In this document: positions 3,050 through 19,390 of the stretch, in pieces | Layout of the letters: each line of letters opens with the position of its first letter | How positions within the stretch are numbered: the stretch's first letter is position 1 | Assembly (NCBI GenBank): GCA_947491945.1 | Contig: CANLLN010000002.1 | Coordinates: 62,001-126,000 of the forward strand | Source of the DNA: an uncultured Carboxylicivirga sp. | GTDB taxonomy: Bacteria > Bacteroidota > Bacteroidia > Bacteroidales > Marinilabiliaceae | Reading direction: 5' to 3' | Length of the DNA stretch: 64,000 nucleotides | The notes under the pieces: model-generated | What the model was told of the DNA's origin: nothing | The model's database searches: none | The model's input: only the letters and a program-made list of their open reading frames with translations | Program-made: the position numbers and the translations under genes

Positions 3050-3068
3050 ACCCTTAAATGTTGAGATT

Positions 3069-4541
3069 ATGAAAATAAAATATTTATTACCATTGCTTTG
3101 CCTAGTAACATGCCTTTTTTATGCTTGTCAGAAAGTACCGACTTTTCCTGATCCTGGTTTCAAGCTGGAAAATCAGGACGTGGAAGTAAGGCGTGACACG
3201 GCTGATTTTTATACTGTAAAAATGCAGATGGAAGTGCCAAACGGTGTTGATAACATAGAAGTGTTGAATGCAACCAATTATGAGTTAGTCGAGTCTATTT
3301 CGGCATACGCCGGGAAAAAGAATTTTGAGTTTAATTACGAAATAGACCTACGTTCTTTTGAAAAGGATACCGTATTGTATTATATTTTTAAGGTAACAGA
3401 TCAAGATAAGCGTTCGTTTAATCGTGGGTTTACATTATCGGTTAAACGGTTGTCATTCCCGGAAATCCGACTTGTTGGTGGAACCTCGCTCAACGTGGTA
3501 GTACCTGTCTATCAGCTAAAAGGTCTTATTTCAACAGGTTTAAATGAATTAGAGTCTGTTCAGGTATTGTTTAAAAACGAAGAGCAATATGCATATATTC
3601 CTGGCGCAAATGAAGCCGTATATGAGTATATTTTATCGGAGCAAATAGGATTTGGTACTTTGGTTGCAGGCGAAGAGTATCCTTTAGATATTATAATTAA
3701 AGATCGGAAAGGACAAACAAGTATTACAACCATAATGGTACGTAAAAGCGATGTATTAAAACAGCCTGTCGGAATAAATGTGTACACATATTCAGGACGA
3801 AATCTTTATTTTGGCCTCGAATACGATGAGTTACATCGGGTATCTAAAATTACCAAACAATGGGAGAATTCAGATGATATTGATAGCTATTTATTATCTT
3901 ATAATGAAATGGGCTGTGTTGATACCATAACCTACCTATCTCGATACGAAAGTGATTATTATCAAGAATATGGGTTGAACCAGTATGGTCACGTATATAA
4001 ATACAAGGAAGGAACAGCTCAGCTGGATCAGATTTTATATTTCGATATTTTTTATAATGACAATGGTTCAGTTGAAATTAGAAGCAATTATGAAATAGAA
4101 AGTCAAAATTTCCAATATAACGAAAATGGTATATTAACTTCCTATTATGGCGAATCGGCAACGCATGAAATGCAGTACACAGATCCTTTTAATACCGGAG
4201 AGTTTATATTTGCCGATTATTGGCAATTTGATTATTATAATATACTAGATAAAAACCGGCAACACCGCACTGATTTTGTACCTCTTTACATGCCATCTTA
4301 TTTAGAAGGTTTACCACCCTTCTTAAGTTTAAGCGATAAAAGGTACTTCAGCGATATCTTTTTCAGTAAATATGTGTTTACAGGCACCCAACATAGTAGC
4401 GATGAGTACACCGGAACATATCTTGAAGAGCCTAATTATAAATATGAAACGGATGCTGATGGCAACCTAATTACCTTTACAAAAAACTATTTGTATAATG
4501 GCTGGAAGCCCCGAGCATATGTATACACATTCAAATATTAA
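3069..4541 (+). CDS. SusCD-operon lipoprotein with YD-like repeats
   Basis: 490 residues from the ATG at 3069, which gives a clean lipoprotein signal (LLCLVTCLFYAC); an upstream ATG at 3033 overlaps the previous gene and adds 12 residues ahead of it, so it is not preferred. Residues about 20-240 look like beta-sandwich domains (alternating short strands, FKVTDQDKRSFNRGFTL). From about residue 250 there are YD-like units such as YDELHRVSKITKQW, YNEMGCVDTI and YNDNGSVEI, ending in YVYTFKY, similar to DUF4595-type proteins. It is the fourth gene of the SusC/SusD operon and probably a surface lipoprotein that binds or presents the ligand. No catalytic motif was seen. Confidence 0.65.
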   Translation: MKIKYLLPLLCLVTCLFYACQKVPTFPDPGFKLENQDVEVRRDTADFYTVKMQMEVPNGVDNIEVLNATNYELVESISAYAGKKNFEFNYEIDLRSFEKDTVLYYIFKVTDQDKRSFNRGFTLSVKRLSFPEIRLVGGTSLNVVVPVYQLKGLISTGLNELESVQVLFKNEEQYAYIPGANEAVYEYILSEQIGFGTLVAGEEYPLDIIIKDRKGQTSITTIMVRKSDVLKQPVGINVYTYSGRNLYFGLEYDELHRVSKITKQWENSDDIDSYLLSYNEMGCVDTITYLSRYESDYYQEYGLNQYGHVYKYKEGTAQLDQILYFDIFYNDNGSVEIRSNYEIESQNFQYNENGILTSYYGESATHEMQYTDPFNTGEFIFADYWQFDYYNILDKNRQHRTDFVPLYMPSYLEGLPPFLSLSDKRYFSDIFFSKYVFTGTQHSSDEYTGTYLEEPNYKYETDADGNLITFTKNYLYNGWKPRAYVYTFKY

Positions 4542-4566
4542 TTAAGTCGTTGATATTTATCAACAG

Positions 4567-4602
4567 AAAGGTCATCTGCATAGATGGCCTTTTGTTATTT
4601 TA
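4567..4602 (+). terminator. Terminator of the SusC/SusD operon
   Basis: An 11-base stem (AAAGGTCATCT, loop GCAT, AGATGGCCTTT, one G-U pair) is followed by a T-rich run. It lies 26 bases after the last gene of the operon. Confidence 0.75.
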
Positions 4603-4744: not shown

Positions 4745-4773
4745 TGTCACCCTCCCTCCCATCTCTTTGCGTC
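4745..4773 (+). promoter_or_regulatory. ECF-type promoter motif, site A
   Basis: TGTCACCCT at 4745-4753 and GCGTC at 4769-4773, 18 bases between TGTCAC and GCGTC. The same pair occurs with 17-base spacing at 6618, 11044 and 13936, each after a terminator and ahead of a gene. The two-part form with a CGTC -10 resembles promoters of ECF sigma factors; this is inferred from the repeat of the pattern. Site A would drive the T9SS-exported protein, 87 bases downstream. Confidence 0.5.
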
Positions 4774-4860
4774 CTGCTTATAACAACGTTAAAATTCATT
4801 AAAAATGTTGTTAAACAGCATAAACGTATGCAAACATTAATTTTTTTAAATTACTCAATT

Positions 4861-6510
4861 ATGAAAAAAATTTACTCTTTTTTGTTCTCTGTAATGTTAA
4901 CAACTTTGGCCTATAGCCAAACGGTTAACTTGGTTGTTGATTCTCACGAGGGAGAAGCCGAAACTGCGCCCGGCAAGATGATTGCTAACAGTACTTTTAT
5001 GGTATACGCTGGTAATGGTGCTAATACATGGACTGCTGCAAGGTCTATTGCCGGAAGTATTTACTATTACGACTATACCGATAGTGAAGTTTGGGTGTCG
5101 GATGGTACAGCCCCAAATACACGCATGCTCGAAATCAATGCAACATTCACAGTGGCAACCGATGCTGAAGGAACTGAATATACACAGCACAACAGTGCCG
5201 GTTTTTCTGATCAGATCCTTTTTAATGATAAAGCTTACTTTAACGCCAATAATGGTGAAGGTTTTCATGTATATTATATTGATGGCATTAGTGGGGATAA
5301 GGTTATGGCACTTGAAAATTCCTGGGCCAGAGTGCTGCCTGATCAGGCCAATGGAATAGTATACCTCACGGAAGGGTCAGCGTCGCCATGGAAGACATGG
5401 GATGGTGTTAATTTAAGTGAGCTGGTGGTGTTGCCGAACCAATACGAAGCCGATGGTACAACCCTTAAGGTTGAAAACTCATCTAACGGAGCTTGTTTGC
5501 TGGGGGATAAAATTGTTTTTGCCGGCTCTTATGTGGATCCAACGTTAGATGTTATAGGGACTGAGTTGTTTGTTTATGACCCAGCTGGTACCGACGGACC
5601 TCAGCTCCTTAAGGATATCCGCGTAGGTACAAGTAGTAGTTCACCAAAATATTTTGTTGAGCATAATGATATCGTATATTTTATGGCTAACGATGGCAGT
5701 GGTACTTATGCTCTGTGGAAAACAGATGGTACCTCGGCTGGTACAGTAAGAGTAACCCCAGGCGATGCTGAATGGACAGTTGATGTTAACGGACAGCCAT
5801 TTTTGTTTAATAGTAAACTGTATTTCGAGGGAGATGATGATAACTCAGCTACAGATGCGTTGGATCAATTGTATGAGTATGACCCAGCTGCCAACACTTT
5901 GACCCGTATTTCAGGATTGTTGGATGCCTATAAAGCAAGCCTTCCTGCGCCGGAAGAGGTATTTATAAATTTTGACCCTAAAAGCTTTGTCGTTTTGGAT
6001 AATACCTTATACTTCTACGCTAAATACTCTTTTGTAGAAGGCGATAAGACATACGACAGTACAACCAATGCCATTTATAAACTAAATGGTACATCAGTTG
6101 AGCTTGTTAGTGAATCAGTTGGGTTTTACCCTGTAGAGCTATTGGCTTTTAACGGTAAAATCTATTTCGCAGGTGAAGATACTGAGTTGATTGACAATGG
6201 CGACGGAACTTTTACAAGTTCAGGCGAAGAGCTATTTGTATACGATCCTAACGGAACACCTACTTCTATTGAACCTGTGCGTAATCAGAATGAGATTGAT
6301 ATCTTTCCAAATCCATCTTATGGCCATGTTAATGTAACAGGTTTTAATGGCGAAACAGCAGAATATAAGCTATACGACCTAAGTGGTCAGCTTGTTGAAA
6401 GAGGTATGCTTAACAACGATATCATTAACTATAATGTAAGTAAAGGAGTATATATTCTTAAAGTAGCTAATGGTACCTTAAGTAAAGCCATGAAGTTAAT
6501 TGTAAGGTAG
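4861..6510 (+). CDS. T9SS-exported protein with ELWxTDGT-type repeats
   Basis: 549 residues from the ATG at 4861, where a signal peptide starts (MKKIYSFLFSVMLTTLAYSQ). The body has repeats of the ELWxTDGT kind (EVWVSDGTAPNTRML near residue 77, ALWKTDGTSAGTVRV near 284, ELFVYDPAGTDGPQLLKDI), probably forming a beta-propeller. The last 75 residues are a type IX secretion sorting domain: IDIFPNPSYGHVNV, then KLYDLSGQLVERG, then SKGVYILKV, ending KLIVR. The protein should cross the outer membrane by T9SS and be released or anchored on the cell surface. It has its own terminator and promoter-like motif, so it forms a single-gene unit. Its ligand or role is unknown. Confidence 0.85.
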   Translation: MKKIYSFLFSVMLTTLAYSQTVNLVVDSHEGEAETAPGKMIANSTFMVYAGNGANTWTAARSIAGSIYYYDYTDSEVWVSDGTAPNTRMLEINATFTVATDAEGTEYTQHNSAGFSDQILFNDKAYFNANNGEGFHVYYIDGISGDKVMALENSWARVLPDQANGIVYLTEGSASPWKTWDGVNLSELVVLPNQYEADGTTLKVENSSNGACLLGDKIVFAGSYVDPTLDVIGTELFVYDPAGTDGPQLLKDIRVGTSSSSPKYFVEHNDIVYFMANDGSGTYALWKTDGTSAGTVRVTPGDAEWTVDVNGQPFLFNSKLYFEGDDDNSATDALDQLYEYDPAANTLTRISGLLDAYKASLPAPEEVFINFDPKSFVVLDNTLYFYAKYSFVEGDKTYDSTTNAIYKLNGTSVELVSESVGFYPVELLAFNGKIYFAGEDTELIDNGDGTFTSSGEELFVYDPNGTPTSIEPVRNQNEIDIFPNPSYGHVNVTGFNGETAEYKLYDLSGQLVERGMLNNDIINYNVSKGVYILKVANGTLSKAMKLIVR

Positions 6511-6535
6511 TAAATACACGTTGATATATTAATTT

Positions 6536-6567
6536 AAGGGTGTTGCAGTGCAACACCCTTTTTCTTT
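6536..6567 (+). terminator. Terminator after the T9SS-exported protein
   Basis: Perfect 10-base stem AAGGGTGTTG / CAACACCCTT with a five-base loop, followed by a T-rich run; 26 bases after the stop codon. Confidence 0.85.
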
Positions 6568-6617
6568 GTTATAAGTTGGGAACTTACGTTGAAAAATGAA
6601 TATGGAATAAAGGAACT

Positions 6618-6645
6618 TGTCACACTGAATTGATTTTTATGCGTC
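6618..6645 (+). promoter_or_regulatory. ECF-type promoter motif, site B
   Basis: TGTCAC at 6618-6623, 17 bases, GCGTC at 6641-6645, then TTAAAAC. Same pattern as sites A, C and D. It lies between the previous terminator and the start of the lipoprotein gene at 6686, 40 bases ahead of it. Confidence 0.55.
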
Positions 6646-6685
6646 TTAAAACTAAACGATCAATGTAATTTAGATTGTTGGTAAA

Positions 6686-8080
6686 ATGATTCAAAGAATA
6701 AAAGACAAACCTACGAGGTGTTGCAAATTAGTTTTACCTATTTTGCTGGTGTGGCACCTATGTGCGCTGACTTCATGTAACCACACGAATACTGCGGAGA
6801 CAAATGGCACGATAAACCTTCTGGTGGATGAAGAAGAAATGGGTTCAACCTCGGTAACAGGTAAAGAACTATTATGGAGTAAATGGCAGGTGAAATGGCC
6901 GGATAGTACAGGTCGTGTGCAGTTTAAAGCCAATATAGAAGAAGCTGATTTATTATTGATTAAAAGTAATAACTCATATAAAACTTTTCGTTGTTATTTA
7001 GAACCTGGTCAAACTTTAAATGTTATTTACAAAACTCATCAGTATACGATCATTGGTAATTCAATCGCAGCACGACAAAACATGCTGCTTCAGAAAGTTG
7101 ATCAACAAATGACATTGTTGAGTAGTCAAAAGGAGTTAGAAAAATGGCCAAACTATCAAATCCTGGAACAATTGGTTTCCAAATTTTCAAATGATAATCC
7201 GGATGCTTCCACGGTTTTTCTTCGATTTATAAGGTTTAATATTCAGTATTTCTTATATACTGAACTGCTGGGTGAAAAGTCAGTCAAATCAAGCATTTAT
7301 CGTGATTTTAATGGTGATGAGCTCAATATCCTGAATAATGTGATTAAGGATTCAAATTATGAATTGGCCTACTTATCGCCTTATTATCGTCAGTTATTAA
7401 AAATATACATTGATTATTATCGTGTAAGACTTTTTGTAGATAAAATAAAACCTGATGATAATCCCATATTAAATGAATTAGCACTATCGTCATTGTTAAG
7501 TAGTAAGCAGCTTAGTGAGTATCAAATGGCCATGAGTTTAAAAGCAATATTTCACGTTGGATGTAACCTTAATTTTGAATATGCCATTAATCAATACACG
7601 GGATATTGGAAGCTTTTTCTACTATCGGAATACAAAGAGACTTGTAACAGAATACCTTCCGGTTTAAATTTAGAAGATAATCACAAACAAATTACCATTT
7701 CAAAAAACTCTTTGTTAAATATACCTATTGAAATGGAGTCTTACCGGGGAACTTGGGTGTATTTAGAAATTACCAAGGGCAGCTTGGGGTATTCCCCATT
7801 TGAAACATACTATCTAAAACGGGTTAAAGAACGTGTGAACAATCTGGATTACATGTTTATATCCCTGGCCGATAAGAAAGTTTCAGGAAGAGATACGCTT
7901 GCCTTTCCAAAGGTTGTATGGGCTTCAGAAGAAAATTTACGCAGGCAACTCAAATCAGAGGTCTTACCATACTCTCTGCTGGTTAATCCTGCTGGTGAGG
8001 TTGTACGTATTAACCTGCCCAGGGCGTCAACCGGGATGTTGGAGCCAATGTTACGAGCAATTATTCAGCAAGAAAAATAA
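6686..8080 (+). CDS. Lipoprotein with thioredoxin-like fold but no CxxC
   Basis: 464 residues with a lipoprotein signal (WHLCALTSC, Cys near residue 31). The layout is that of Bacteroidota TlpA-like proteins: an N-terminal beta domain (TINLLVDEEEMG to FRCYLEPGQTLNVIY, like DUF4369), a helical middle, and a C-terminal domain. At the C-terminus GTWVYLEITKGSLGYSPFE takes the place of the usual strand plus WCxxC, and LPYSLLVNPAGEVVRINLP corresponds to the strand with cis-Pro (family: iPTyvLID..G.iv). No cysteine pair remains, so disulfide exchange is not expected; it could be a binding partner. It is followed after 108 bases by the M16 peptidase gene, probably in one transcript. The fold call is moderately sure, the function is not known. 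Confidence 0.6.
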   Translation: MIQRIKDKPTRCCKLVLPILLVWHLCALTSCNHTNTAETNGTINLLVDEEEMGSTSVTGKELLWSKWQVKWPDSTGRVQFKANIEEADLLLIKSNNSYKTFRCYLEPGQTLNVIYKTHQYTIIGNSIAARQNMLLQKVDQQMTLLSSQKELEKWPNYQILEQLVSKFSNDNPDASTVFLRFIRFNIQYFLYTELLGEKSVKSSIYRDFNGDELNILNNVIKDSNYELAYLSPYYRQLLKIYIDYYRVRLFVDKIKPDDNPILNELALSSLLSSKQLSEYQMAMSLKAIFHVGCNLNFEYAINQYTGYWKLFLLSEYKETCNRIPSGLNLEDNHKQITISKNSLLNIPIEMESYRGTWVYLEITKGSLGYSPFETYYLKRVKERVNNLDYMFISLADKKVSGRDTLAFPKVVWASEENLRRQLKSEVLPYSLLVNPAGEVVRINLPRASTGMLEPMLRAIIQQEK

Positions 8081-8188
8081 ACTATTGATATGAAACGACC
8101 ATACCAATTTGATATTCGGATTAATATGCAGGCGATGATCAAATTTAGTTGGAAGTTCCATATGGCAATTGAAAGAAAATATAATCAT

Positions 8189-10897
8189 ATGAAATCATTA
8201 AAGACAGCCGTCTTACTTTTATTACTGTTTTTATGCAAAACAGGCAATGCCCAGGAGTTGCAAATGCCGCATGAGGTGAAAATGGGACATTTGAAAAATG
8301 GGATGACCTACTTTATCATCCCGGATGGTAATCCGGGTAAAGTTAAACTGACGATGCTAACTAAAGTGGGCGCACTCCTTGAAAAACCAAACCAGCATGG
8401 TTATGCTCATATGGTAGAGCACATGTTGTTTAAAGGAAGTGAAAACTATCCGGGTAGAGCCTGCCTGGACGAACTGGAATTGATGGGCATGCGTCGTGGA
8501 ATCGATTCTAATGGTTATACAGGGAGTAGTAGTACCCAGTATTTTGTGACTATTCCTGAAAACGATAAAGATTATTTTGAAAGAAGCCTGCGCCTTCTTA
8601 AAGACTGGATGTTCCATTTGCAAATGGATGAAGACATATTGGAAAATGAGAAGAAAGTCATTATTGAAGAAATTAACCGGGCAGGTGGCGATCCGGTTGG
8701 AGCGCCGAATTTAATTGGAACCAGCCTTGAAGGGCATGATCCACTAGGTACGAAGGAATCTGTAAAGTCAGCTTCTATTAATGGATTATACCAATTTTAT
8801 AAAGACAATTATATACCATCTAATATGGCCTTGATTGTACATGGTAAAATGGATCAGAAGTGGGCAGAAAAGCAGATTAAAAGACTATTCTCGAAAGAAA
8901 CGGCTGCCGCAGGTCATGAGCCCAATCGTTACATTAATATTAATAATACAACCGTGGTAAGTGGTCAGTATCCGAAAAAAAATGATCATGCTCCGGATAT
9001 ACTTGTAGTGCAGTTTAAAGATGAGCCCATAGAGGTAATAGATTATAAATCATTTAAGGCCTTTCTTAAAACGAAACTGATGAGCCGTATGCTGGACATG
9101 AGAATAAACCAGTTAATGGGCAACTCAGTTAAAAAGGTTTCGGTGAATATGGGTTCTGTTATTCCTGGTAATTCGGTCTATAATATCAGGTTACAGCTTT
9201 TAAATAATGTGTCTTATAAAGCAGTTTTTGATTCGTTTTGCAAAATGTTAGCACAGGTTCAACAGTATGGTTTCACCCCTGAAGAAATAGAATATGTAAA
9301 CACAATAGAGACACAGTTTTTGGAAAGGCGACGTAAGATTAAGCCTGATATGATTAATAAAGTGCAAAACTTTTTTATTAGCGGGAATATGCCTATCGAG
9401 ACAGAGCAATATGAGAATTTTACACTTAAAGCCTTGAAAGAAATAACTGCAGACGATTATCTGGCCTTGTTTAATCATATGCTTGATTTGGAAAAGACGA
9501 TCCTGTACAACGGAACAAGCACTGCCTGTTCTCCGGATTTTAATGAAACTGCCATTCTTGGTAAACTAAAGCTTCTAGATACCATTTCAACACCGGAATT
9601 TGTGTTTGAGGGTAAATTAGCAGTGCAGAGAAAGCCAAAGGAAGTAAGAAGTTTTCAATTGGAGACTCGTAATATTGCCGTGATAAGAAAAGAGAAACAA
9701 TTGGATGAGGGCTTAAAAGTATTGACTTATCCTTCAGGAGTAAAGGTAGTGCTATACGATTCAAATGACGAAAAGGCTACTGTAAAAATGATTTCGGCAA
9801 AGGGCTTGAGTTATCTTCCAGTCGAAGAACGAAATAGTTATGAAAAGTCCATCCGCTATATGATTTCAGCTTATGGTAAATATGATGATAAAGAAGCCAG
9901 AGTAATTGAGAGAAGCAGGGGCATCACAAAAAAGACATCCATCGATGACTATTTTTATGAATTAAACGTGAATAGTAAATCAGTAGATTTGGAAGAATCG
10001 TTGAAGTGTTTCAACTTGCTGATTGCAGAACCGAACTATCCGGAAGCCAAAGAAGTGATGAAAGCTTTAGAGCGGAGGAACAAAAGAAAAAAAGTGAATG
10101 ACGATGCCAATAATAATGTTGAGGCAGCGTTAAGCGAAGCATTGGTGAAGCGTTTATACGAATACGACCGCAACATAAAAAACCAAATTGGAGAAGCTAT
10201 TATACTGGTAGAAGGCAATTTACCTGATAATATCGAAGCAATTGTTTCACAATACATTGGAAGTTTGCCATCAACAAAAACAAGTGAGTTAAATAACATT
10301 GATGCGGATGGAATAATACCTGATTCTATCATCTATAACCCAATAGCTTGGAAACAGGATTTGTCTAAGATAGCTTATAATTTTAGAAAGCCATCTGAAA
10401 AAACACTCACGCTTCAGGATGAGTTACTACTGCAAGGTGTTAAGGAGTACGCGCATTTAAAAATGTTCAGTGTCATCAGAGAAAAGTATGGATTAGTATA
10501 TGCTACCGGAAGGAATGCAGAGGTTTATAAGGTGCCTTTTAATTATAGTATGCTCAGACTGGCTTTTATGACCGATACATCCAATATCGAACGGGCATAT
10601 GATATAATGACAAATGAAGTTTTGGCCCCATTGGATAAAGCCGTGCTAAGCGATATTGAGTTACAAAAGATAAAGGCCTTGGTACGTAGTTTATACGTAA
10701 TGTCTTTTTATGAAGATCAGCGCATAAGAGATAAATGGCTAAAAGCTTATCTGAAATATGGTAAAGTGTATTCTGCAAAAGAGTTGGATTCTATAATTAA
10801 AGCGTTAAGCCCTAGGAAATTAGAAAAATACCTGCATGAAATAATTGATTTGGAGCGATTTGAGTTAAAGATACATTTGCCTGAAGAAATGATCTGA
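8189..10897 (+). CDS. M16 family zinc peptidase 1 (insulinase/pitrilysin type)
   Basis: 902 residues from the ATG at 8189, which begins a signal peptide (MKSLKTAVLLLLLFLCKTGNAQ); the upstream ATG at 8090 would bury it behind 33 residues. The N-terminal M16 domain has the inverted zinc motif HxxEH (H74, E77, H78 in AHMVEHMLF) and the third ligand near E154 in ENEKKVIIEE, so it should be active. A second, non-catalytic M16 domain follows from about residue 520 (LDEGLKVLTYPSGVKVVLYD). M16 enzymes degrade short unfolded peptides inside a closed chamber; here in the periplasm. A second M16 gene lies at 15535, on the far side of three thioredoxin-like genes. Confidence 0.88.
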   Translation: MKSLKTAVLLLLLFLCKTGNAQELQMPHEVKMGHLKNGMTYFIIPDGNPGKVKLTMLTKVGALLEKPNQHGYAHMVEHMLFKGSENYPGRACLDELELMGMRRGIDSNGYTGSSSTQYFVTIPENDKDYFERSLRLLKDWMFHLQMDEDILENEKKVIIEEINRAGGDPVGAPNLIGTSLEGHDPLGTKESVKSASINGLYQFYKDNYIPSNMALIVHGKMDQKWAEKQIKRLFSKETAAAGHEPNRYININNTTVVSGQYPKKNDHAPDILVVQFKDEPIEVIDYKSFKAFLKTKLMSRMLDMRINQLMGNSVKKVSVNMGSVIPGNSVYNIRLQLLNNVSYKAVFDSFCKMLAQVQQYGFTPEEIEYVNTIETQFLERRRKIKPDMINKVQNFFISGNMPIETEQYENFTLKALKEITADDYLALFNHMLDLEKTILYNGTSTACSPDFNETAILGKLKLLDTISTPEFVFEGKLAVQRKPKEVRSFQLETRNIAVIRKEKQLDEGLKVLTYPSGVKVVLYDSNDEKATVKMISAKGLSYLPVEERNSYEKSIRYMISAYGKYDDKEARVIERSRGITKKTSIDDYFYELNVNSKSVDLEESLKCFNLLIAEPNYPEAKEVMKALERRNKRKKVNDDANNNVEAALSEALVKRLYEYDRNIKNQIGEAIILVEGNLPDNIEAIVSQYIGSLPSTKTSELNNIDADGIIPDSIIYNPIAWKQDLSKIAYNFRKPSEKTLTLQDELLLQGVKEYAHLKMFSVIREKYGLVYATGRNAEVYKVPFNYSMLRLAFMTDTSNIERAYDIMTNEVLAPLDKAVLSDIELQKIKALVRSLYVMSFYEDQRIRDKWLKAYLKYGKVYSAKELDSIIKALSPRKLEKYLHEIIDLERFELKIHLPEEMI

Positions 10898-11000
10898 GTG
10901 TGATTCATAAAAGATAGTATCCTATAGAGGGACTTATTATCATGTTCACATTACGCAAACAGTAATAGCTTTTTAAAGGTTTGGATTGATTTTAGTTTGT

Positions 11001-11034
11001 AAGTTGCAATGGTTCTACCCTTGCAACTTTTTTG
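11001..11034 (+). terminator. Terminator after M16 peptidase 1
   Basis: Perfect 9-base stem AAGTTGCAA / TTGCAACTT with an 11-base loop, followed by TTTTT; about 100 bases after the stop codon. Confidence 0.75.
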
Positions 11035-11043
11035 TATGCACCC

Positions 11044-11071
11044 TGTCACTCTGCTAGCATATTCATGCGTC
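11044..11071 (+). promoter_or_regulatory. ECF-type promoter motif, site C
   Basis: TGTCAC at 11044-11049, 17 bases, GCGTC at 11067-11071 followed by CTTAATT. It starts ten bases after the terminator of the previous unit and precedes the first thioredoxin-like gene. Confidence 0.55.
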
Positions 11072-11084
11072 CTTAATTAAATGT

Positions 11085-11093
11085 AAAGGAGGT
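11085..11093 (+). promoter_or_regulatory. Perfect Shine-Dalgarno sequence upstream of thioredoxin-like gene 1
   Basis: AAAGGAGGT is fully complementary to the 3' end of 16S rRNA and lies 11 bases before the ATG at 11105. Such sites are rare in Bacteroidota, and it favours 11105 over the ATG at 11147 as the start, or marks a short leader. Confidence 0.45.
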
Positions 11094-11104
11094 TTTCTGA
11101 AAGG

Positions 11105-12481
11105 ATGAAATGCCTTTATAATCAAAATATCATTAAAATAATCTTTATGAAAAAAATAGCTATAGCTTTATTAATGTGCCTTTCAATAATCGGAGCTGAT
11201 CTGTATGCGCAGGGGATCAATTTTGAGCATATTACATTTGAAGAGGCATTGGTCAAGGCTAAGAAAGAAAATAAATTAATTTTTATTGATTTTTACACAG
11301 TCTGGTGTGCCCCATGTAAAATGTTGGCCAAAACAGTTTTTCCAGATTCAAAAGTGGGTGAATTATTCAACAAAGAGTTTATCAACCTTAAACTCGATGC
11401 AGAAAAAGAAGGCCGGGAAATAGCGAAAAACTACAAGGTCGATGCTTATCCAACACTGCTTTTCGTTAACGGAGATGGAGACATGCTTTATCGAAAAGTG
11501 GGCGGAATAAATATCGATCAATTTTTGGCTATGGGACATGATGTTATAAAAACAGCCAATAGTGATTACAGCTTGTTGAGTTTACAAGAAATGTTTCCAC
11601 AAAAGCAAAATGATGAAAAGTTTCTGCGGATATACATCGATAGGATGATAGAGTACGGCCAGAATCCTGCTGATGGTATTGAAGCCTGGTTAAAGATTCA
11701 AACTGAGATAAAAGAGAATGGTGTGGATATGTTTGAGTTTATGCTCAAATATGTGAAATACATGCAAGTGGATGGTAAAGCCGAGGAAATATTAATTAGC
11801 AATTATGATGAGTTTTTTGATATTGCTACCCGTCAGGAAGAAGGCGTTCTTAAAAAGATGCAATCCAAAATGGTGAATAATACTGGAACTGCCGCCTATG
11901 CTCAAAAAGATCCTCAATTAATGCGTGCTTTCATCAACAATTGGAAAGAGTTGCACGGCGAAGATGCTAACATGGAGGCCTTAACGCAGTATGAACTGGA
12001 CTACCTATTATTTGCAAAGGATATTGATGCCTATAAAGCAATGGCCGAGGCTTATATGGATAGTATTATGTCGGCTAAAAGCCTGCAGCAAATCAGGCAG
12101 GAAGACAAGGCATATTATGAGCACTACAAGGCTAATAAGTATAGACCAAGTCTTATTGCTAACTCTATCCTTAATAACCTTGAAAAAGGACGTGAAGCGC
12201 GGAAACAAACCAAGATCATAGAAAAAACAGGCTTCAGTTATTTAAAATATTGTGAGAGTAAAAAGGACTTTAAACGTCTGCATTCGTGGATTGACTATGG
12301 TGCGCAATTGGTACCGGGTGATTATAATATGGATAACCTGAGGGCAAGCGTACTGAATAAACAAGGCAAGACTAAAAAGGCCATTCAATACAAGGAGCAA
12401 GCATTAAATAAGTTGCCGGAGCGCGATAAAAAAAGAGGCGTTATAGAGCGACAGCTTAATGAATTGAAAAGCGATCAATAG
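11105..12481 (+). CDS. Thioredoxin-like periplasmic protein 1 (WCAPC)
   Basis: 458 residues from 11105, or 444 from 11147. The shorter form has the cleaner signal peptide (MKKIAIALLMCLSIIGADLYAQ), the longer one the perfect Shine-Dalgarno sequence; I keep the longer and leave it open. The thioredoxin domain follows the signal: FIDFYTVWCAPCKMLAKTVF with the CxxC, and AYPTLLF with the cis-Pro. About 300 mainly helical residues follow, ending in a TPR-like segment (ASVLNKQGKTKKAIQYKEQA). It should act in the periplasm as a disulfide reductase or oxidase. Two close relatives follow at 12497 and 14035, so this is a tandem paralog family. The first two genes are 15 bases apart and form one unit. 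Confidence 0.85.
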   Translation: MKCLYNQNIIKIIFMKKIAIALLMCLSIIGADLYAQGINFEHITFEEALVKAKKENKLIFIDFYTVWCAPCKMLAKTVFPDSKVGELFNKEFINLKLDAEKEGREIAKNYKVDAYPTLLFVNGDGDMLYRKVGGINIDQFLAMGHDVIKTANSDYSLLSLQEMFPQKQNDEKFLRIYIDRMIEYGQNPADGIEAWLKIQTEIKENGVDMFEFMLKYVKYMQVDGKAEEILISNYDEFFDIATRQEEGVLKKMQSKMVNNTGTAAYAQKDPQLMRAFINNWKELHGEDANMEALTQYELDYLLFAKDIDAYKAMAEAYMDSIMSAKSLQQIRQEDKAYYEHYKANKYRPSLIANSILNNLEKGREARKQTKIIEKTGFSYLKYCESKKDFKRLHSWIDYGAQLVPGDYNMDNLRASVLNKQGKTKKAIQYKEQALNKLPERDKKRGVIERQLNELKSDQ

Positions 12482-12496
12482 TTAAAAATTAAACCA

Positions 12497-13825
12497 ATGA
12501 AAAAATTATATAGTACAATTTTATTAGTACTTACGGTTGTAAGTGTTGTTGCGCAGGGTATTAATTTCGAAAACAGTAGTCTTTCAGACGCGCTGGCTAA
12601 AGCAAAGGCCGAAAACAAGCTTTTGTTTATTGATGGTTATGCCGTGTGGTGTGGCCCGTGTAAGCACATGGCTAAAACTGTTTTTATGGAAGAAGAAGTA
12701 GGAAAGTACTTTGATGCCCACCTGGTGGCTTTAAAAGTGGATGTTGAACGCGGTGAAGGGCCCACGATTAAGCGAAAATATAATATTAAGGGCTTGCCAG
12801 GATATGTTTTCTTAGATGGAGATGGTAATGTGGTGTATCGCTTCTCTGCGTCGATGCCAACAGATCGTTTTATGAAAGAAGTAAAGTTGGCAGTAAAGTA
12901 CTCAAAAGACTCTCTTAGTTTAGGTCGTTTAGCAGAACGTTATAATACAGAAAAGAATGACGAAGCATTTTTAAAAACATATCTGGCTAAGTTAAAAGAG
13001 AGTAATTCGACTAATTATACCGATGTGCTTGAGCAATATTTAAGCATTCAGAAAAACATTGATGAGTCGAGCCGGGAAATGGTTCTTCTATTGGCCGATC
13101 ATTACGAAGAGATCATATTTGGTGGACGGGCTGATGAGATTATTCAGCGAAATTTTGGGTCGGATGCCTGGAAGCAATATGTGCGTAAAGATATTCGAGA
13201 AGCATTTCAGAAGTTGCCCAAGAGCATGATAGAAAAAACAACCGATTATGCCGTTGCTAAAAAAGACACTGCCATCTTGGAAATGACCATGAGAAGAGCT
13301 GAGAAAGCGGGCGTAAAAGTAGATGATAAGCAGCGTAAAAGAGCCTATACTTATTTTTATGAGAAAGCAGGTATGGGTAAACAGTACAAAGCATTGGTGC
13401 GACAAGATAATGAGGCCTTTATTCAGTCAATTGATGTAGAACAAATGCGCAATGCCTATTTAGATTTGATGAAGCGAAAGGCTGAAGGCGATGCTATAGC
13501 TTTAGCCTCCAGGCCACACTCGGAGCGAATTAGCCATCAAATTTCTGCAATGGTTAATAGTTATGCCAAATTTGCCTGCACAGAACAGGAAAAAAAGGAT
13601 GTAAAACGCTGGATGAAGGTTGCCTACCAAATTATTCCGGGCAATGCTGCTATTACCAGTCAATATGCAACGATTCTCTATAAGCTGGATGAGAACAAGG
13701 AAGAAGCCATTAAACTAATGGAAGAAGCTTATCAGCATGCCTCACAAAAGGACGATAAAAGAAGTCAAGGCATCAAGAAAGATCTGGAACTGATGAAAGC
13801 CGGTGAAAGTATTGTTTTAAAGTAA
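12497..13825 (+). CDS. Thioredoxin-like periplasmic protein 2 (WCGPC)
   Basis: 442 residues with signal peptide MKKLYSTILLVLTVVSVVAQ. The thioredoxin domain has WCGPC (C52, C55) and the cis-Pro strand GLPGYVFLDGDGN. The rest is a helical extension with TPR-like pairs near the end (YATILYKLDENKEEAIKLM). It shares the layout and the GINFE start of the mature protein with its neighbours at 11105 and 14035. The long helical tail is not part of standard TlpA or ResA proteins and may bind a partner, for instance one of the M16 peptidases next door; that is a guess from context. It is followed by a terminator. Confidence 0.87.
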   Translation: MKKLYSTILLVLTVVSVVAQGINFENSSLSDALAKAKAENKLLFIDGYAVWCGPCKHMAKTVFMEEEVGKYFDAHLVALKVDVERGEGPTIKRKYNIKGLPGYVFLDGDGNVVYRFSASMPTDRFMKEVKLAVKYSKDSLSLGRLAERYNTEKNDEAFLKTYLAKLKESNSTNYTDVLEQYLSIQKNIDESSREMVLLLADHYEEIIFGGRADEIIQRNFGSDAWKQYVRKDIREAFQKLPKSMIEKTTDYAVAKKDTAILEMTMRRAEKAGVKVDDKQRKRAYTYFYEKAGMGKQYKALVRQDNEAFIQSIDVEQMRNAYLDLMKRKAEGDAIALASRPHSERISHQISAMVNSYAKFACTEQEKKDVKRWMKVAYQIIPGNAAITSQYATILYKLDENKEEAIKLMEEAYQHASQKDDKRSQGIKKDLELMKAGESIVLK

Positions 13826-13885
13826 TAAGCAAACGCTTTGCCTGAAGAATAAATCATTTTTAAGTTTAATAGTGGTTAATGGTAG

Positions 13886-13926
13886 CGCTTCGGGTCTTAA
13901 TAGTAGATCCGAAGCGTTTTTTTTTT
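13886..13926 (+). terminator. Terminator after thioredoxin-like gene 2
   Basis: 12-base stem CGCTTCGGGTCT / AGATCCGAAGCG (one G-U pair, seven-base loop) followed by ten T. Confidence 0.88.
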
Positions 13927-13935
13927 ATAGCGATT

Positions 13936-13963
13936 TGTCACCCTGTTCCTTCTTATAGAAGTC
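13936..13963 (+). promoter_or_regulatory. ECF-type promoter motif, site D
   Basis: TGTCAC at 13936-13941, 17 bases, AAGTC at 13959-13963 followed by TTAAAAT. The -10 half differs from the other sites in its first two bases. It starts ten bases after the terminator and 99 bases before the third thioredoxin-like gene. Confidence 0.5.
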
Positions 13964-14034: not shown

Positions 14035-15402
14035 ATGAATAAATCTCAAATACTACTGTTGCTGTTCATCTTGATTGGGCCATTGACTTTTTCGCAAGGC
14101 ATCGATTTCCAGCATATTACTTTCGAAGAGGCACTTATAAAGGCACAGAAAGAGGATAAACTCATTTTTATTGATTTCCATACTGCCTGGTGTGGTCCCT
14201 GTAAAAAATTAGCCAAAGGACCGTTTAAGGATTCTTTAGTAGGGGATTATTACAACCGGCATTTTATTAATCTAAAATTAGATGCTGAAAGAGAAGGAAA
14301 GCAAGCGGCAGAGCTTTTTACGGTACGAAGTTATCCAACATTAATATTTGTTGACGGCGACTCCCAAATGGTGTATCGAGGTACAGGGTCAACAATGATT
14401 AAGAGTGGGGGTATGATACCCTTTGCCAAGTTGGCCTTAAAAGCTGCAACAAGCGATGAATATTCACTGGAAGATATGCAGAGGCTTTTTCCTGAAAAAC
14501 TAAACGACGAAGCTTTCTTGAAAAAATACCTCAACATATTGGTTAAATACAAAATGGATCCTATTCAGGCGCTTGATGCCTGGTTAAGTGTGCAAACAGA
14601 TATCGAAGAATCAAGCGGGGAAATGCTAGACCTTTTATTGAAATACGGCCATAGTATTTATTTAGGGTGTCAAGCAGAAACAGTATTGAGAGCCAACTAC
14701 AATCATTATTTAACGATTGTACCAAAGAAAAATAAGATAAGGTTGGAACGAATTGAAAACCTCATCGCTATGACTACACTCAAAAGAGCTTATCATATGC
14801 AGGATCCAGAACTGATGCGGCGTTACTTAGACAAGTGTAAAGAAAATAATATCGGTGCGGCAAAAAATGGGAAATTGGGCTTTTATGAGATGGAGTATTT
14901 AAGGCTTGCTAATAATAATGAGGCTTATAAAAAGGCTGCGGTAGCCTATGTTGATAGTATTATTGACATGAAATCAGTAAAGCAAATTAAAAAGGATGAT
15001 GCTGAGTCTTATAATAAGTTCCTGGAGTTTACTAAAGATAAGTCTGGTGTTTATATTGAGTATAAGCGAAAGATGATGAAACAAGGAAAAATTGCAACTC
15101 GCAATGTTAAGGACATAATGGAAGTCTGCCGCCTCTATTGGTCGCGGTGCGAAACAAAAGAAGATTACAGGCATTTAAAAAGTTGGATTAAATATTGTTA
15201 CAAACTCATTCCGGGATATTGGGAAGTGAACAACCTGGAAGCTGACCTTATTTATACTCAAGGCCAGGTGAAAAAGGCAATCGATTTAAAACAGACAGCC
15301 ATTGATAATGTACCATTTAACTTTAAAAAGAAGCCAAACCTGGAATATCAATTGCAATTAATGAAGCAAGGCAAAACAATAACTGTTGTACCAATTAAGT
15401 AA
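14035..15402 (+). CDS. Thioredoxin-like periplasmic protein 3 (WCGPC)
   Basis: 455 residues with signal peptide MNKSQILLLLFILIGPLTFSQ. FIDFHTAWCGPCKKLAKGPF carries the CxxC (C53, C56); SYPTLIFVDGDSQ has the cis-Pro. It is closest in layout and wording to protein 1 (shared HITFEEAL, KLIFIDF, INLKLDAE segments), so a duplication is plain. The helical C-terminal part ends in a TPR-like helix pair (ADLIYTQGQVKKAIDLKQTA). It is followed after 132 bases by the second M16 gene with no terminator seen between them, so they may share a transcript. Confidence 0.87.
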   Translation: MNKSQILLLLFILIGPLTFSQGIDFQHITFEEALIKAQKEDKLIFIDFHTAWCGPCKKLAKGPFKDSLVGDYYNRHFINLKLDAEREGKQAAELFTVRSYPTLIFVDGDSQMVYRGTGSTMIKSGGMIPFAKLALKAATSDEYSLEDMQRLFPEKLNDEAFLKKYLNILVKYKMDPIQALDAWLSVQTDIEESSGEMLDLLLKYGHSIYLGCQAETVLRANYNHYLTIVPKKNKIRLERIENLIAMTTLKRAYHMQDPELMRRYLDKCKENNIGAAKNGKLGFYEMEYLRLANNNEAYKKAAVAYVDSIIDMKSVKQIKKDDAESYNKFLEFTKDKSGVYIEYKRKMMKQGKIATRNVKDIMEVCRLYWSRCETKEDYRHLKSWIKYCYKLIPGYWEVNNLEADLIYTQGQVKKAIDLKQTAIDNVPFNFKKKPNLEYQLQLMKQGKTITVVPIK

Positions 15403-15534: not shown

Positions 15535-18348
15535 ATGCGAAGAATAATTATATTACTAATGGGAACTTTTCTCATTGGCTCAGTAGCATATGCACAACAA
15601 TTTGCAGACTTATCACAAACAATGCCTTTTGACTCAACCATCAGGAAAGGCTTGTTACCCAATGGTTTAACCTACTATTTAAAACACAATAGAGTTCCTA
15701 AAGGTCAGGCCAGCTTTTATATTTACCAGAATGTTGGAGCGGTGCTGGAAACCGATAAGCAAGATGGTTTAGCCCACTTCCTGGAGCACATGGCATTTAA
15801 CGGTACTACAACCTTCCCCGGCAAATCGATGCTGGATATGTTAGAGCGAAATGGCGTTAAGTTTGGTAAGGATGTAAATGCCTATACCTCAAAGAATGAG
15901 ACTGTTTACAACATTAGTCGTGTTCCGGTTAGTCGCAATGGATTACTCGACTCGTGCTTGTTAATTTTGCGTGACTGGTGTGATGAACTGGCACTGACTG
16001 ACGAAGAAATAGATGCCGAACGAGGTGTGATATCTGAGGAATGGCGTACACGCAGAACTCCTGGTTTTAGAATACAAAATAAGATTGCACCAACGATCTA
16101 TAATGGCAGTATTTATGCCTATCGGGATGTAATTGGAGAACTTGATGTGATCAAAAACTTTGATCCTGAAGACTTGCGATCCTTCTATCATGAGTGGTAT
16201 CGAACCGATTTGCAGGCCATAGCTATTGTTGGGGACATTGATGTAGATGCTGTTGAGAAACAAGTGGAGGAACTATTTTCTGCCATCCCGGCCATTGAAA
16301 ATCCAAAAGAACGCAAAGCAGTCCTAATTCCGGATAACCCAGAACCAATGTTTGTTCAGGTCACTGATAAAGAATACAAAAACGTTAATATCAACCTGAA
16401 AATAAGACATGAAGATACTTCTGACAATACACTAAAAAGTTTGCGCGAGTCCTATGTCAATAGCTTCTTTAACGCCTTGATGAAGGGACGTTACAAGGAG
16501 CAGATGTTAAAAGGTAAAGCGCCATACCTGAATGCCAGTGCCTCATACGGAGCCTTACAAAGAGGATATAAAGCTTTTAATGTATATGTAACAACCAGGG
16601 CAGGTAAAGAGTCAGAGGCATTTGAAGCAGCCTATGCCGAGCTGCAACGTGTCATTCAACATGGTTTCACCCAGTCCGAGTTGAATCGTTTAAAAACTAA
16701 TACCCTAGTTTCCCTTACGAACAGTTATAATAACAGAAAAGGCATTAATTCCGATACCTACTGTAAGTCTATTAAAAGAGCCTACCTGGAAGATGTAGTT
16801 ATTACCGATGCTAAATTCAAGTACGAATTTGCTAAGGAAATAATTCCGGGTATTACAGTAGAAGAAGTGTCTGCTGTGGCAAGTAAATATTTAACTGACA
16901 GCAACCGGGCTTATGTGGTTACTGCACCTGCAAGTGATAAGGACTCATTCATTTCACAAGCTGAGATTGAAAGCATTATTGCCAGACTGGAGAAAAGACC
17001 TCTTGAGCCCTATGTAGATGGCGTACCCGTGAATGTTTCACTGATGAGTACGACTCCAGAAGCAGGTCAAATTGTAAGTGAGAAGAGCATTGATATATTT
17101 AAGGCCAAGGAGTGGACACTTTCTAATGGTGCAAAAGTAGTCTTTAAGCGAGTGGATAATAATACCAATGGCCTTATACTTAAAGCTACAAGTCCGGGAG
17201 GGAGTTCACTATACAATATTGATGATTTACCTTCTTTTAGGGCGGCATCTGGTTTTGTAGCCGGCTTTGGTATTGGTAAACACGATCCTGTTCAGTTGAA
17301 GAAAATAACAGCGGGTACAACAGCCGGCTGTAGTTATAAATTGGGGGAATTTAATGAGTCGATAACTGCCAGCGCAAAGGTGAAGGATCTCGAGACTATG
17401 TTCCAATTGGTGTACATGCGCTTTGAAGAACCCCGTTTTGACCCCATGGCCTTCAATAAGCTCATGGAACGCAACTACTACAATGCTAAAAACCAGATTC
17501 AAACAACGAAAACTATCATGCGTGATACAATAGCTTTATTAACGGCCAATGGAAATCCTCGCGCGTTAAAGTTTGATAAAGCCTTTTTGGATCAAATGGA
17601 TTTTGAGCGCATGAAGGAGATCTATTTGGAAAGGATGTCCAACGCGGCTGACTTTACTTTCATCATTGTGGGAGATGTCGATGAAGAAACACTTAAGCCA
17701 CTGGTTGAAGAGTACATTGGAGCGATTAATACTAAAGGCGAAGTAGAAAAGTGGGTTGATAATGGTGATTATTTCCCAACCGGAAAAAATGAACACCGTA
17801 TTGCCTTGCCGATGCAGGAACCCAAAGCTACTGTCTTTCTTAAGCTGAAAGGAAATGCCAAATATTCGCGAGAGACAGTAATTTATCACAATATTTTAGG
17901 GTCAATTTTAAACCTTCGCTTTACTGAAAATATTCGCGAAAAAGAAGGAGGTACGTACGGTGTTCGAGTACGCCCAACCGGATCCAGTATACCTGAAATG
18001 AAATTAGGATTGGACATTCAGTTTGATTGCGATCCGGCCAAGGCTGATTATCTAAAGCAGCTGGTTTATGATGAGCTGAAAAATGTTCAAAAAAATGTAG
18101 TGCAATCAGACTTGGAGAAGGTAGTACTTAACATGAAAAAAGGCAATCGAAAGGCCTTAAGAAACAACAAATACTGGATGTCTGTTCTGAAAAAATACTA
18201 TGAGACGGGAGAAAACAGAATGTCGCCTGAGTACTTTGATAATGTCATTAATAATGTGACAACCAAAGATATTGCCAAAGCTGCCAGGAAATTTTTTAAG
18301 AAAGCAGATATATTAGATGTCGTTTTTGTGCCCGAAGAGTTAAACTAA
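15535..18348 (+). CDS. M16 family zinc peptidase 2
   Basis: 937 residues from the ATG at 15535, which begins a signal peptide (MRRIIILLMGTFLIGSVAYAQ); a TTG ten codons upstream is not needed. The catalytic M16 domain has H81, E84, H85 (AHFLEHMAFNG) and E162 in AERGVISEEW, all at family spacing, and the typical DVNAYTSKNETVYNI segment. A second M16 half follows from about residue 520 (AKEWTLSNGAKVVFKRVD). This is the PqqL-like type of large periplasmic M16 protease. It closes the cluster that starts with the other M16 enzyme; the two are only distantly alike, so they are not a recent duplication. Confidence 0.92.
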   Translation: MRRIIILLMGTFLIGSVAYAQQFADLSQTMPFDSTIRKGLLPNGLTYYLKHNRVPKGQASFYIYQNVGAVLETDKQDGLAHFLEHMAFNGTTTFPGKSMLDMLERNGVKFGKDVNAYTSKNETVYNISRVPVSRNGLLDSCLLILRDWCDELALTDEEIDAERGVISEEWRTRRTPGFRIQNKIAPTIYNGSIYAYRDVIGELDVIKNFDPEDLRSFYHEWYRTDLQAIAIVGDIDVDAVEKQVEELFSAIPAIENPKERKAVLIPDNPEPMFVQVTDKEYKNVNINLKIRHEDTSDNTLKSLRESYVNSFFNALMKGRYKEQMLKGKAPYLNASASYGALQRGYKAFNVYVTTRAGKESEAFEAAYAELQRVIQHGFTQSELNRLKTNTLVSLTNSYNNRKGINSDTYCKSIKRAYLEDVVITDAKFKYEFAKEIIPGITVEEVSAVASKYLTDSNRAYVVTAPASDKDSFISQAEIESIIARLEKRPLEPYVDGVPVNVSLMSTTPEAGQIVSEKSIDIFKAKEWTLSNGAKVVFKRVDNNTNGLILKATSPGGSSLYNIDDLPSFRAASGFVAGFGIGKHDPVQLKKITAGTTAGCSYKLGEFNESITASAKVKDLETMFQLVYMRFEEPRFDPMAFNKLMERNYYNAKNQIQTTKTIMRDTIALLTANGNPRALKFDKAFLDQMDFERMKEIYLERMSNAADFTFIIVGDVDEETLKPLVEEYIGAINTKGEVEKWVDNGDYFPTGKNEHRIALPMQEPKATVFLKLKGNAKYSRETVIYHNILGSILNLRFTENIREKEGGTYGVRVRPTGSSIPEMKLGLDIQFDCDPAKADYLKQLVYDELKNVQKNVVQSDLEKVVLNMKKGNRKALRNNKYWMSVLKKYYETGENRMSPEYFDNVINNVTTKDIAKAARKFFKKADILDVVFVPEELN

Positions 18349-18640: not shown

Positions 18641-19390
18641 ATGAATAATAATTTAGCTGTATTAATCGACGGCGATAATATACCCGCAGGATATGTGAAA
18701 GAGATGATGGAAGAAATTGCCAAATATGGCAACCCAACAATAAAACGTATCTATGGCGACTGGACCAAACCCGATTTGTCAAAATGGAAAAAAGTACTGC
18801 TGGAGAATGCCATTACCCCTATACAACAATATGCTTACACCTCGGGGAAAAACGCCACCGACTCAGCCATGATCATTGATGCCATGGACATCCTGTATTC
18901 TGAGAAAGTAAATGGCTTCTGCCTGGTATCGAGCGACAGTGATTTTACCAAACTCGCCACCCGCCTGCGCGAAGCCGGAATGCAAGTAATTGGCATTGGA
19001 GAAAAGAAAACCCCTACCCCCTTTATCGTAGCCTGCGATAAATTTATCTATGTCGAAATATTAAAAGATCGAGCCAAAGAAAAAGAATCAGAAGATGACA
19101 AAGACCACGACAAGGAATCATACGATAAAATAACCCCTAAGGAAATCAAACTGATCGCCGCCACCATCAACGACCTTTCGGACGATGACGGCTGGGCCTT
19201 TCTGGGCGATGTGGGTAGTTTACTACAGAAGAAACGCCCTAACTTTGACCCCCGCAACTACGGATTTCAGAAATTGACACCCTTGATTGACGCTACCGCA
19301 CGCTTTGAAATTGAACAACGCGACAGCCCCAACAGCCGCCACAAACTTATTTACGTAAAAAATAAAGCACGACGCCTGCATAAGAAATAA
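18641..19390 (+). CDS. NYN domain (LabA/DUF88) protein with OST-HTH/LOTUS domain
   Basis: 249 residues, cytoplasmic. Residues 1-140 form a NYN (PIN-like) domain: LAVLIDGDNI with the first acidic pair, NATDSAMIIDAMD with the middle acids, and VSSDSDFTKLATRLREAG with the last ones, so the metal site looks whole. After a charged linker (about 145-165) comes a LOTUS/OST-HTH domain (LIAATINDLSDDDGWAFLGD, then GFQKLTPLID) known to bind RNA in relatives. The protein is therefore probably an RNA-processing nuclease or RNA-binding factor. It stands alone; the flanking genes give no hint. An overlapping open frame at 18466-18648 is not supported. Confidence 0.85.
   Translation: MNNNLAVLIDGDNIPAGYVKEMMEEIAKYGNPTIKRIYGDWTKPDLSKWKKVLLENAITPIQQYAYTSGKNATDSAMIIDAMDILYSEKVNGFCLVSSDSDFTKLATRLREAGMQVIGIGEKKTPTPFIVACDKFIYVEILKDRAKEKESEDDKDHDKESYDKITPKEIKLIAATINDLSDDDGWAFLGDVGSLLQKKRPNFDPRNYGFQKLTPLIDATARFEIEQRDSPNSRHKLIYVKNKARRLHKK

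Follow-up and report, generated by a model that had tools for sequence, protein, structure and literature searches.

A repeated promoter motif in a SusCD, thioredoxin and M16 peptidase island of Carboxylicivirga is probably read by one FecI-type extracytoplasmic function sigma factor

In Bacteroidota, dozens of pairs of extracytoplasmic function (ECF) sigma factors and anti-sigma proteins are tied to nutrient uptake, and the promoters that they read are poorly known. In this work we analyzed a stretch of 64,000 nucleotides, hereafter the window, from an uncultured marine Carboxylicivirga sp. (assembly GCA_947491945.1, contig CANLLN010000002.1; G000:C2:62001-126000 of its 4.9 Mb genome of 216 contigs), where four consecutive transcription units had been predicted to share a promoter motif, TGTCAC followed after 17 or 18 bases by GCGTC or AAGTC. 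The genes concerned belong to an island that encodes a sigma factor, a FecR-type anti-sigma protein, a SusC transporter with an STN domain, a SusD protein, two lipoprotein-like open reading frames (ORFs), one cargo protein of the type IX secretion system (T9SS), two M16 peptidases and three thioredoxins. We propose that the motif is the promoter recognized by one FecI-type ECF sigma factor, whose gene lies 4.6 kb upstream of the window; to this sigma-promoter link we give a probability of about 0.88. The features are listed below in their order along the DNA; ranks are those of the matrix scan described further on.

L041:9878-9905 (outside the window): sixth, weaker site, TGTCACCC..GCGTT, 5' of the DsbD_N gene
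L041:9973-10431: DsbD_N gene, 152 aa, just upstream of the sigma gene
G000:C2:56838-57398, same strand as the island: ECF sigma factor, 186 aa (PF04542, PF08281)
L041:11416-11444 (outside the window): fifth site, N18, GCGTC, in the gap between the sigma gene and fecR
L041:11488-12699: FecR-type anti-sigma gene (PF04773, FecR_C)
L041:12778-16485: SusC with STN, carboxypeptidase-regulatory and plug domains (PF07660, PF07715, TIGR04056)
510..1943, +: SusD-like lipoprotein, part of the unit that has its site in the sigma/fecR gap, beyond the window (PF14322, PF07980)
1955..3049, +: g364, lipoprotein-like ORF with a conserved Cys20, no family; ortholog in G010 (44%)
3033..4541, +: g502, lipoprotein-like ORF, no family; ortholog in G010 (42%)
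4566..4593, +: terminator of the SusCD unit (terminator scan)
4745..4773, +: sigma-dependent promoter site, TGTCACCC..N18..GCGTC, 5' of the T9SS cargo gene; rank 1
4861..6510, +: ELWxxDGT-repeat protein with a T9SS type A sorting domain (PF18962, TIGR04534, TIGR04183)
6536..6560, +: terminator (terminator scan)
6618..6645, +: promoter site, N17, GCGTC, 5' of g464-M16a; rank 4; G010 has a site 5' of M16a
6686..8080, +: g464, no family above a cut-off (Pfam/NCBIfam)
8189..10897, +: M16 peptidase M16a (PF00675, PF05193)
11001..11029, +: terminator hairpin seen in the sequence, stem 11001-11009/11021-11029 with an 11-nt loop, then a T-run
11044..11071, +: promoter site, N17, GCGTC, 5' of trx1-trx2; rank 3
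11147..12481, +: thioredoxin-domain protein trx1 with CxxC (PF00085, PF13899; sequence)
12497..13825, +: thioredoxin-domain protein trx2 with CxxC (PF13899; sequence)
13884..13918, +: terminator (terminator scan)
13936..13963, +: promoter site, N17, AAGTC variant, 5' of trx3; rank 8; same variant at the same place in G010
14035..15402, +: thioredoxin-domain protein trx3 with CxxC (PF00085; sequence)
15535..18348, +: M16 peptidase M16b, without a site of its own (PF00675, PF05193)

The original prediction had placed the sigma gene outside the window, and it was found there on the same contig, the gene order being sigma, motif copy, fecR, susC and then SusD at window position 510. The sigma factor consists of regions 2 and 4 only, as a two-domain ECF, with Pfam matches that end at residue 173. 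It is one of 33 Sigma70_r2 genes in this genome; its best NCBIfam hit, the Bacteroidota sigma family TIGR02985, scores 121.5 bits and stays below the cut-off of 126.4, and its relatives of solved structure are generic ECFs. By eye, a terminator-like hairpin separates it from the DsbD_N gene, so that the sigma gene is probably not part of its own regulon.

The four predicted sites are present at 4745, 6618, 11044 and 13936, and they are the only matches of TGTCACN{15,20}GTC in the window, all on the plus strand, which agrees with the claim that no further copy occurs there. With the two copies just upstream, the total is at least six sites instead of four. Given the start codons taken as likely, all four window sites are intergenic, and the six sites end, in order, 67, 43, 87, 40, 75 and 71 nt before start codons that were chosen by us (for the T9SS gene, ATG 4861; a longer ORF with a TTG start also exists). 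The copies had been described as lying right after terminators, which is accurate for two of them, at 14 and 17 nt, and only loosely so for those at 57 and 151 nt. Three of the four terminators head the output of the terminator scan, which does not list the hairpin at 11001-11029 because a loop of 11 nt exceeds what it accepts. Regarding the genes, the three thioredoxin proteins keep CxxC and have by eye signal-peptide-like starts, the Pfam search gave no family for g364, g502 or g464, and a locus search for relatives of g464 returned 48 stretches, none of them a relative. M16b is probably read through from trx3.

The motif can be summarized as TGTCACnC, 15-16 nt and GCGTC, usually with a T before GCGTC. 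This T occurs in 18 of 20 compiled sites, in a column that was not fixed by construction; in contrast, most of these sites were gathered with TGTCACnC and GTC fixed, and therefore the absence of variation in those columns is in part built in.

Throughout the genome, the strict form TGTCACNCN{15,16}GCGT has six matches, five of which fall on one strand of the 20-kb island (binomial P about 2e-13), and its reversed-pattern control has none; the expectation that a genome scan would not return hits spread at random over coding sequence was thus borne out. The same pattern gave 4 matches in G010, judged from its identical sites to be Carboxylicivirga sediminis JR1, three of them in the island, with 1 in the control, and 7 in G013, with 0 in the control. 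In addition, a matrix was built from 14 sites, all of them in four other genomes; one of these sites, in G013, ends in GTGTC and could be part of the other regulon. When 398,199 bases of the focal genome, ~8% of it, were scanned with this matrix on both strands, the sites of the island ranked 1-5 and 8. A pattern with an N16 spacer, used as a control, had 22 matches with at most one mismatch, none in the island, and its reversed control 36.

The occurrence of the motif in other genomes follows that of the sigma factor. Relatives of the sigma factor were detected at E 1e-35 or better in 7 of 71 genomes of the family, and only three have an identity of ~55% or more: the focal genome, G010 (66%) and G013 (55%), the rest being at 45% or less. 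The form TGTCACNCN{15,16}GCGTC has 4, 3 and 6 matches in these three genomes, compared with 11 matches in 9 of the other 68; the reversed control gave 1 match in the three sigma-bearing genomes and 15 in the other 68. Five of the six G013 sites were new, one G013 site and the G010 sites being known beforehand. An ECF gene with matching phylogenetic spread, as anticipated, therefore exists: the motif is enriched only where the sigma ortholog reaches ~55% or more, and Marinifilum agrees with this.

The sites, the gene order and the linkage of motif and sigma gene across species can be read directly from the sequences of individual loci. An alignment scan with SusC gave seven loci, four of which carry this island (one being that of C. 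sediminis). In C. sediminis the island keeps its order and lacks the T9SS gene and g464; sites are found in the sigma/fecR gap (N18), 5' of M16a, 5' of trx1 (N17, GCGTC) and 5' of trx3 (N17, AAGTC); the intergenic regions otherwise agree little by eye, except for stretches beside start codons. One further match, with another spacer and inside M16b, looks like chance. The short contigs of G013 carry sites 5' of fecR, of a susC (57% to the focal one), of an outer-membrane carboxypeptidase-regulatory protein and of three proteins with no family, so that the target set differs there. Out of the sample, Marinifilum fragile has a sigma factor with 62% identity and the exact motif TGTCACTCCCCATCTGAAATTCTGCGTC in the sigma/fecR gap; its contig stops after g502, and the reading of its susC is split over two frames. 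In Mangrovibacterium lignilyticum (sigma 54%), TGTCACCC..N18..CTGTC precedes fecR and TGTCACTC..N17..CGGTC precedes trx1, i.e. the − 35 and the spacings are those of the focal locus and the − 10 has changed; these sites were found by inspection, the − 10 class of the pattern scan having excluded C. The position of the 11044 site is hence kept in G010 and, with another − 10, in Mangrovibacterium, as judged by locus comparison.

A different situation is found in Carboxylicivirga sp. A043 (G011, as judged from equal site coordinates), where SusC (66%), SusD, M16a, trx1 and trx2 are kept and the neighbouring sigma factor, divergently oriented, is only 32% identical. No TGTCACnC..GTC occurs in the 23.6 kb that include the M16a and trx1 gaps, with the trx3 gap lying outside; another string, TGTCACC..GTGTATC, stands 5' of its own fecR, and the GCGTC form has no match in the whole genome. 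As read from the sequence, A043 would be a natural swap, in which the genes of the island are found with another sigma factor and the motif is gone. Sequence thus links one sigma-promoter pair in five genomes, for which the natural swap serves as a control.

Several observations weigh against the proposed link. The window count is marginal, given that shuffled windows have a mean of 1.31 matches of the loose pattern and four or more in 5 of 100 shuffles, and for this reason the question had to be decided outside the window. Looser forms are not enriched by number: TGTCACN{15,19}CGTC has 10 matches in the genome (4 in the island) and its reversed control 49, and the form with only GTC (N16/N17) gives 7 against 7 in the focal genome (3 in the island, 3 in the second motif, GTGTC, described below, and 1 elsewhere), 12 against 12 in G010 and 15 against 10 in G013; discrimination comes, in consequence, from the full − 10 and from position only. 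The strict pattern was chosen after seeing the sites of the focal genome, those of G010 and one of G013, so the family-wide count is not fully independent for those sites. Within the island, the AAGTC site deviates from the − 10 and ranks only 8th in the matrix scan, and M16b has no motif site. In Mangrovibacterium, the − 10 has lost the GC of GCGTC, and no TGTCAC is present in the g502-M16a gap. Finally, the − 35 is common to the separate GTGTC regulon and does not by itself identify the focal sigma factor.

This last point bears on the possibility that several ECF sigma factors of the genome share these promoters and that the island is not the regulon of one of them. The − 35 TGTCACCC does occur in the genus-wide GTGTC regulon, CACCC is common to related sigma/fecR gaps, and overlapping ECF regulons have been suggested for Flavobacterium psychrophilum (PMC9723704). 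However, GTGTC genomes that lack the focal sigma factor, such as G011 and G012, have no GCGTC sites, and A043 retains the genes and not the motif; we consider such sharing unlikely. Operators of a dimeric DNA-binding regulator, of the Crp/Fnr or hybrid two-component kind, seem very improbable: two blocks at a fixed spacing would also suit a protein dimer, a Crp/Fnr gene is among the targets of the related GTGTC motif, and the sites of hybrid two-component systems are described as direct repeats ~21 bp apart (PMC3878776), but here the two blocks are not related as repeats, be it inverted or direct, the spacer differs by a single base between sites, as is usual for promoters, the sites lie 3' of terminators at 40-87 nt from start codons, and the motif follows one ECF gene across genomes. 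Chance, i.e. four matches in an AT-rich genome picked out by eye, is compatible with the 5 shuffles in 100 and with the counts of the looser forms, and becomes negligible in view of the clustering of the strict form, the conservation of the motif at the same gaps in other species, the ranks in the matrix scan and the finds made out of the sample, unless these results share an artefact. At the level of sequence, the sigma gene, the motif in its gap, the clustering and the spread support the idea that one ECF sigma factor controls a small regulon here.

For the FecI-type sigma factor as reader of the motif, we infer the following recognition, start sites, direction of signalling and cargo. TGTCACnC would be the − 35 and GCGTC the − 10. 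A loaded SusC-type transporter would signal via its STN domain through the FecR-type anti-sigma protein; the sigma factor would then be released or activated, and would start transcription at six places in 20 kb, giving the units fecR-susC-susD-g364-g502, T9SS cargo, g464-M16a, trx1-trx2, trx3(-M16b) and, from the weaker site, the DsbD_N gene. Since the first site lies between the sigma and anti-sigma genes, the sigma factor would raise its own inhibitor and the transporter and not itself, which could act as a built-in negative feedback. In this manner a T9SS cargo, M16 peptidases and thioredoxins would be tied to one SusCD transporter. As for what is transported, a disulfide-bearing peptide that is taken up, reduced by the thioredoxins and cut by the M16 peptidases is a tentative suggestion, and its being a guess from gene content also counts against the scheme.

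Systems of this kind are already known. The locus resembles the FecI-FecR-FecA system of E. coli in its two-domain ECF sigma factor, the adjacent FecR-domain regulator and, next door, a TonB-dependent receptor with an N-terminal signalling domain (STN). The target of FecI in E. coli is the fecA promoter, and fecIR itself is reported not to be autoregulated (PMC9249621); in contrast, the site found here is 5' of fecR, which makes the anti-sigma gene part of the regulon, and five further units carry a site as well. The E. coli wiring, with the promoter directly 5' of the receptor gene and the regulators outside its control, was not found at the focal locus, where the fecR-susC gap has no motif site; in G013 a site does precede a susC. 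In Bacteroides, the ECF/anti-sigma pairs of polysaccharide utilization loci (PULs) combine the same regulator pair with the same class of transporter, and nearly half of the 50 ECFs of B. thetaiotaomicron are reported to lie in PULs (PMC12596196). Unlike these loci, the focal island has peptidases and thioredoxins and no carbohydrate-active domain among the genes scanned with Pfam. A strict polysaccharide locus was rejected: the SusC/SusD pair is present and no carbohydrate-active enzyme was found among the island proteins scanned, a check that left four ORFs (g364, g502, g464 and the non-repeat part of the T9SS protein) with no domain assigned.

With regard to promoters, prediction for ECFs has been called a challenging task (PMC3878776). 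According to an article of 2020 that also mentions an EcfO motif, none of the ECFs of B. thetaiotaomicron had a known promoter motif (PMC7366714), and a report of 2025 proposes a TGTT box near the − 10 for SigW-1 and SigH-1, the motif search for SigW-1 being described there as not significant (PMC12596196). A promoter motif for a SusCD-linked FecI-type ECF was not found in the literature covered, which leaves aside most subscription journals and supplements. The ECF41 promoter is given as TGTCACA-n16-CGTC, 16 plus or minus 1 (PMC3426412), and its − 35 TGTCAC and − 10 CGTC read almost like those described here. In contrast, the focal sigma factor has 186 aa, lacks a C-terminal extension and has a FecR partner, the compiled sites have C at position 8 of the − 35, the spacer is 1-2 nt longer (18-19 nt from TGTCAC to CGTC, compared with 17), and only 1 of the 20 compiled sites has A at position 7, so the ECF41 promoter is not reproduced. 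Membership in ECF41 was rejected on account of protein length, promoter spacing and the missing extension. A CGT box is also present in the − 10 of the F. psychrophilum motif SM6, reported before T9SS genes, so that such a box is known for an ECF of Bacteroidota (PMC9723704); the motif proposed for P. gingivalis SigP is another string, rich in A (PMC4800418). T9SS components are among the targets of both. The prediction of envelope or T9SS targets fared less well here, with only one T9SS cargo as target and no T9SS component among the genes scanned. A SigP-like regulon of T9SS components was rejected.

The reuse of the gap sequence was also examined with no preset motif, as the recurrence of a 7+5-base pair in downstream same-strand intergenic regions with one mismatch allowed. 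At the focal locus, the sequence of the sigma/fecR gap recurs in 3 of 6 intergenic regions, the best pair being TGTCACC/TGCGT, while reversed sequence gave 1 and each of four shuffles 1. Thirty of the 33 sigma genes were surveyed as loci together and the other three separately; the former gave 17 ECF-FecR loci and the latter one more, 18 in total. The other 17 show 0-2 reuses, like their controls, and one (L168) is without a region to test; stretches were of 20 kb (24 kb for the focal locus, shorter at contig ends) and three on contig C7 overlap. At the sensitivity of this test, the spread over several promoters is peculiar to the focal sigma factor in its genome.

A wider sample of gaps, taken as the last 150 nt before fecR after dropping loci without a same-strand FecR match, suggests a more general rule. 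The string [CT]ACCC[ACT] is present in 19 of 28 gaps that belong to sigma factors with an NTVKT-type recognition helix (2000 shuffles gave 1.75 on average and 7 at most; 6 of 28 with the reverse complement) and in 0 of 13 gaps of the KTVE type; AGGGTA occurs in 4 of 13 KTVE-type gaps (shuffle mean 0.30, maximum 3) and in 1 of 28 of the NTVKT type, with 2 of the 43 gaps unclassified. The shuffles keep single-base make-up only, and were used together with the reverse complement because a string-reversed control is invalid here, reversal leaving CACCCAC unchanged. The focal − 35, TGTCACCCACC in its own gap, is of the first, NTVKT/CACCC type. Given that the sample includes orthologs, the 28 gaps are not independent and the rule is a lead, not a law. 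We lean slightly towards the view that the gap is a readable code, each FecI-type ECF of Bacteroidota carrying its own promoter before fecR; as parts of it, the − 10 may well distinguish sister sigma factors, and the focal island would be the case in which one sigma factor has spread its promoter over six units. Our confidence was lowered a little, to just above even, by PUL24 of B. thetaiotaomicron, where a possibly sigma-dependent 5' end is reported to map within the anti-sigma gene and not before it, at 291 nt from the start of the gene that follows (PMC11501099). If the view is true, the sigma/anti-sigma gap may work as a place to look for the promoters of other ECFs.

In all five species inspected by eye, the fecR-susC gap (L041:12700-12777; L202, L203, L204, L205) contains a hairpin whose sequence has changed (here AGAGGGTGTTGCCGCACCCTCT), perhaps an element of mRNA processing or stability that sets the FecR:SusC ratio. 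A joint fold backs it weakly, since A043 is without the pairing.

The second motif, TGTCACCC-N14-RGTGTC, is separate and has 44 matches in 11 of the 71 family genomes (reversed control 2); of the 14 genomes that belong to the genus, 9 have 3-5 matches each. In the focal genome it lies at G000:C1:124523, C2:177831 and C6:12724 (L122, L129, L132; relatives L125-L166). Its recurrent targets are a PALP-type cysteine-synthase-like enzyme, a Crp/Fnr regulator, a transmembrane DsbD, a small DsbD_N protein and an RNA candidate, a set that resembles an ECF regulon related to thiols and made up of single genes at scattered places. Next to the focal sigma gene, the DsbD_N gene is 41-44% identical to DsbD_N genes under the GTGTC motif in relatives; its own site, GCGTT, is nearer to the focal motif, and a switch of regulon is possible.

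The RNA candidate is a conserved stretch of ~145 nt without a long ORF, directly 3' of the GTGTC promoter, with copies at L133:1357-1500 (-), L137:1529-1687 (+), L147, L149, L158, L159 and L161. It has no Rfam match, ends in the terminator GGGCTGTGG...CCACAGCCC-T and shows one compensatory pair of 25. A model built from the seven copies found it in 11 of 119 relatives (10 of the genus and one other) and not in the focal genome. Just past the island, window positions 18641-19390 encode an NYN nuclease-like domain joined to an OST-HTH/LOTUS domain.

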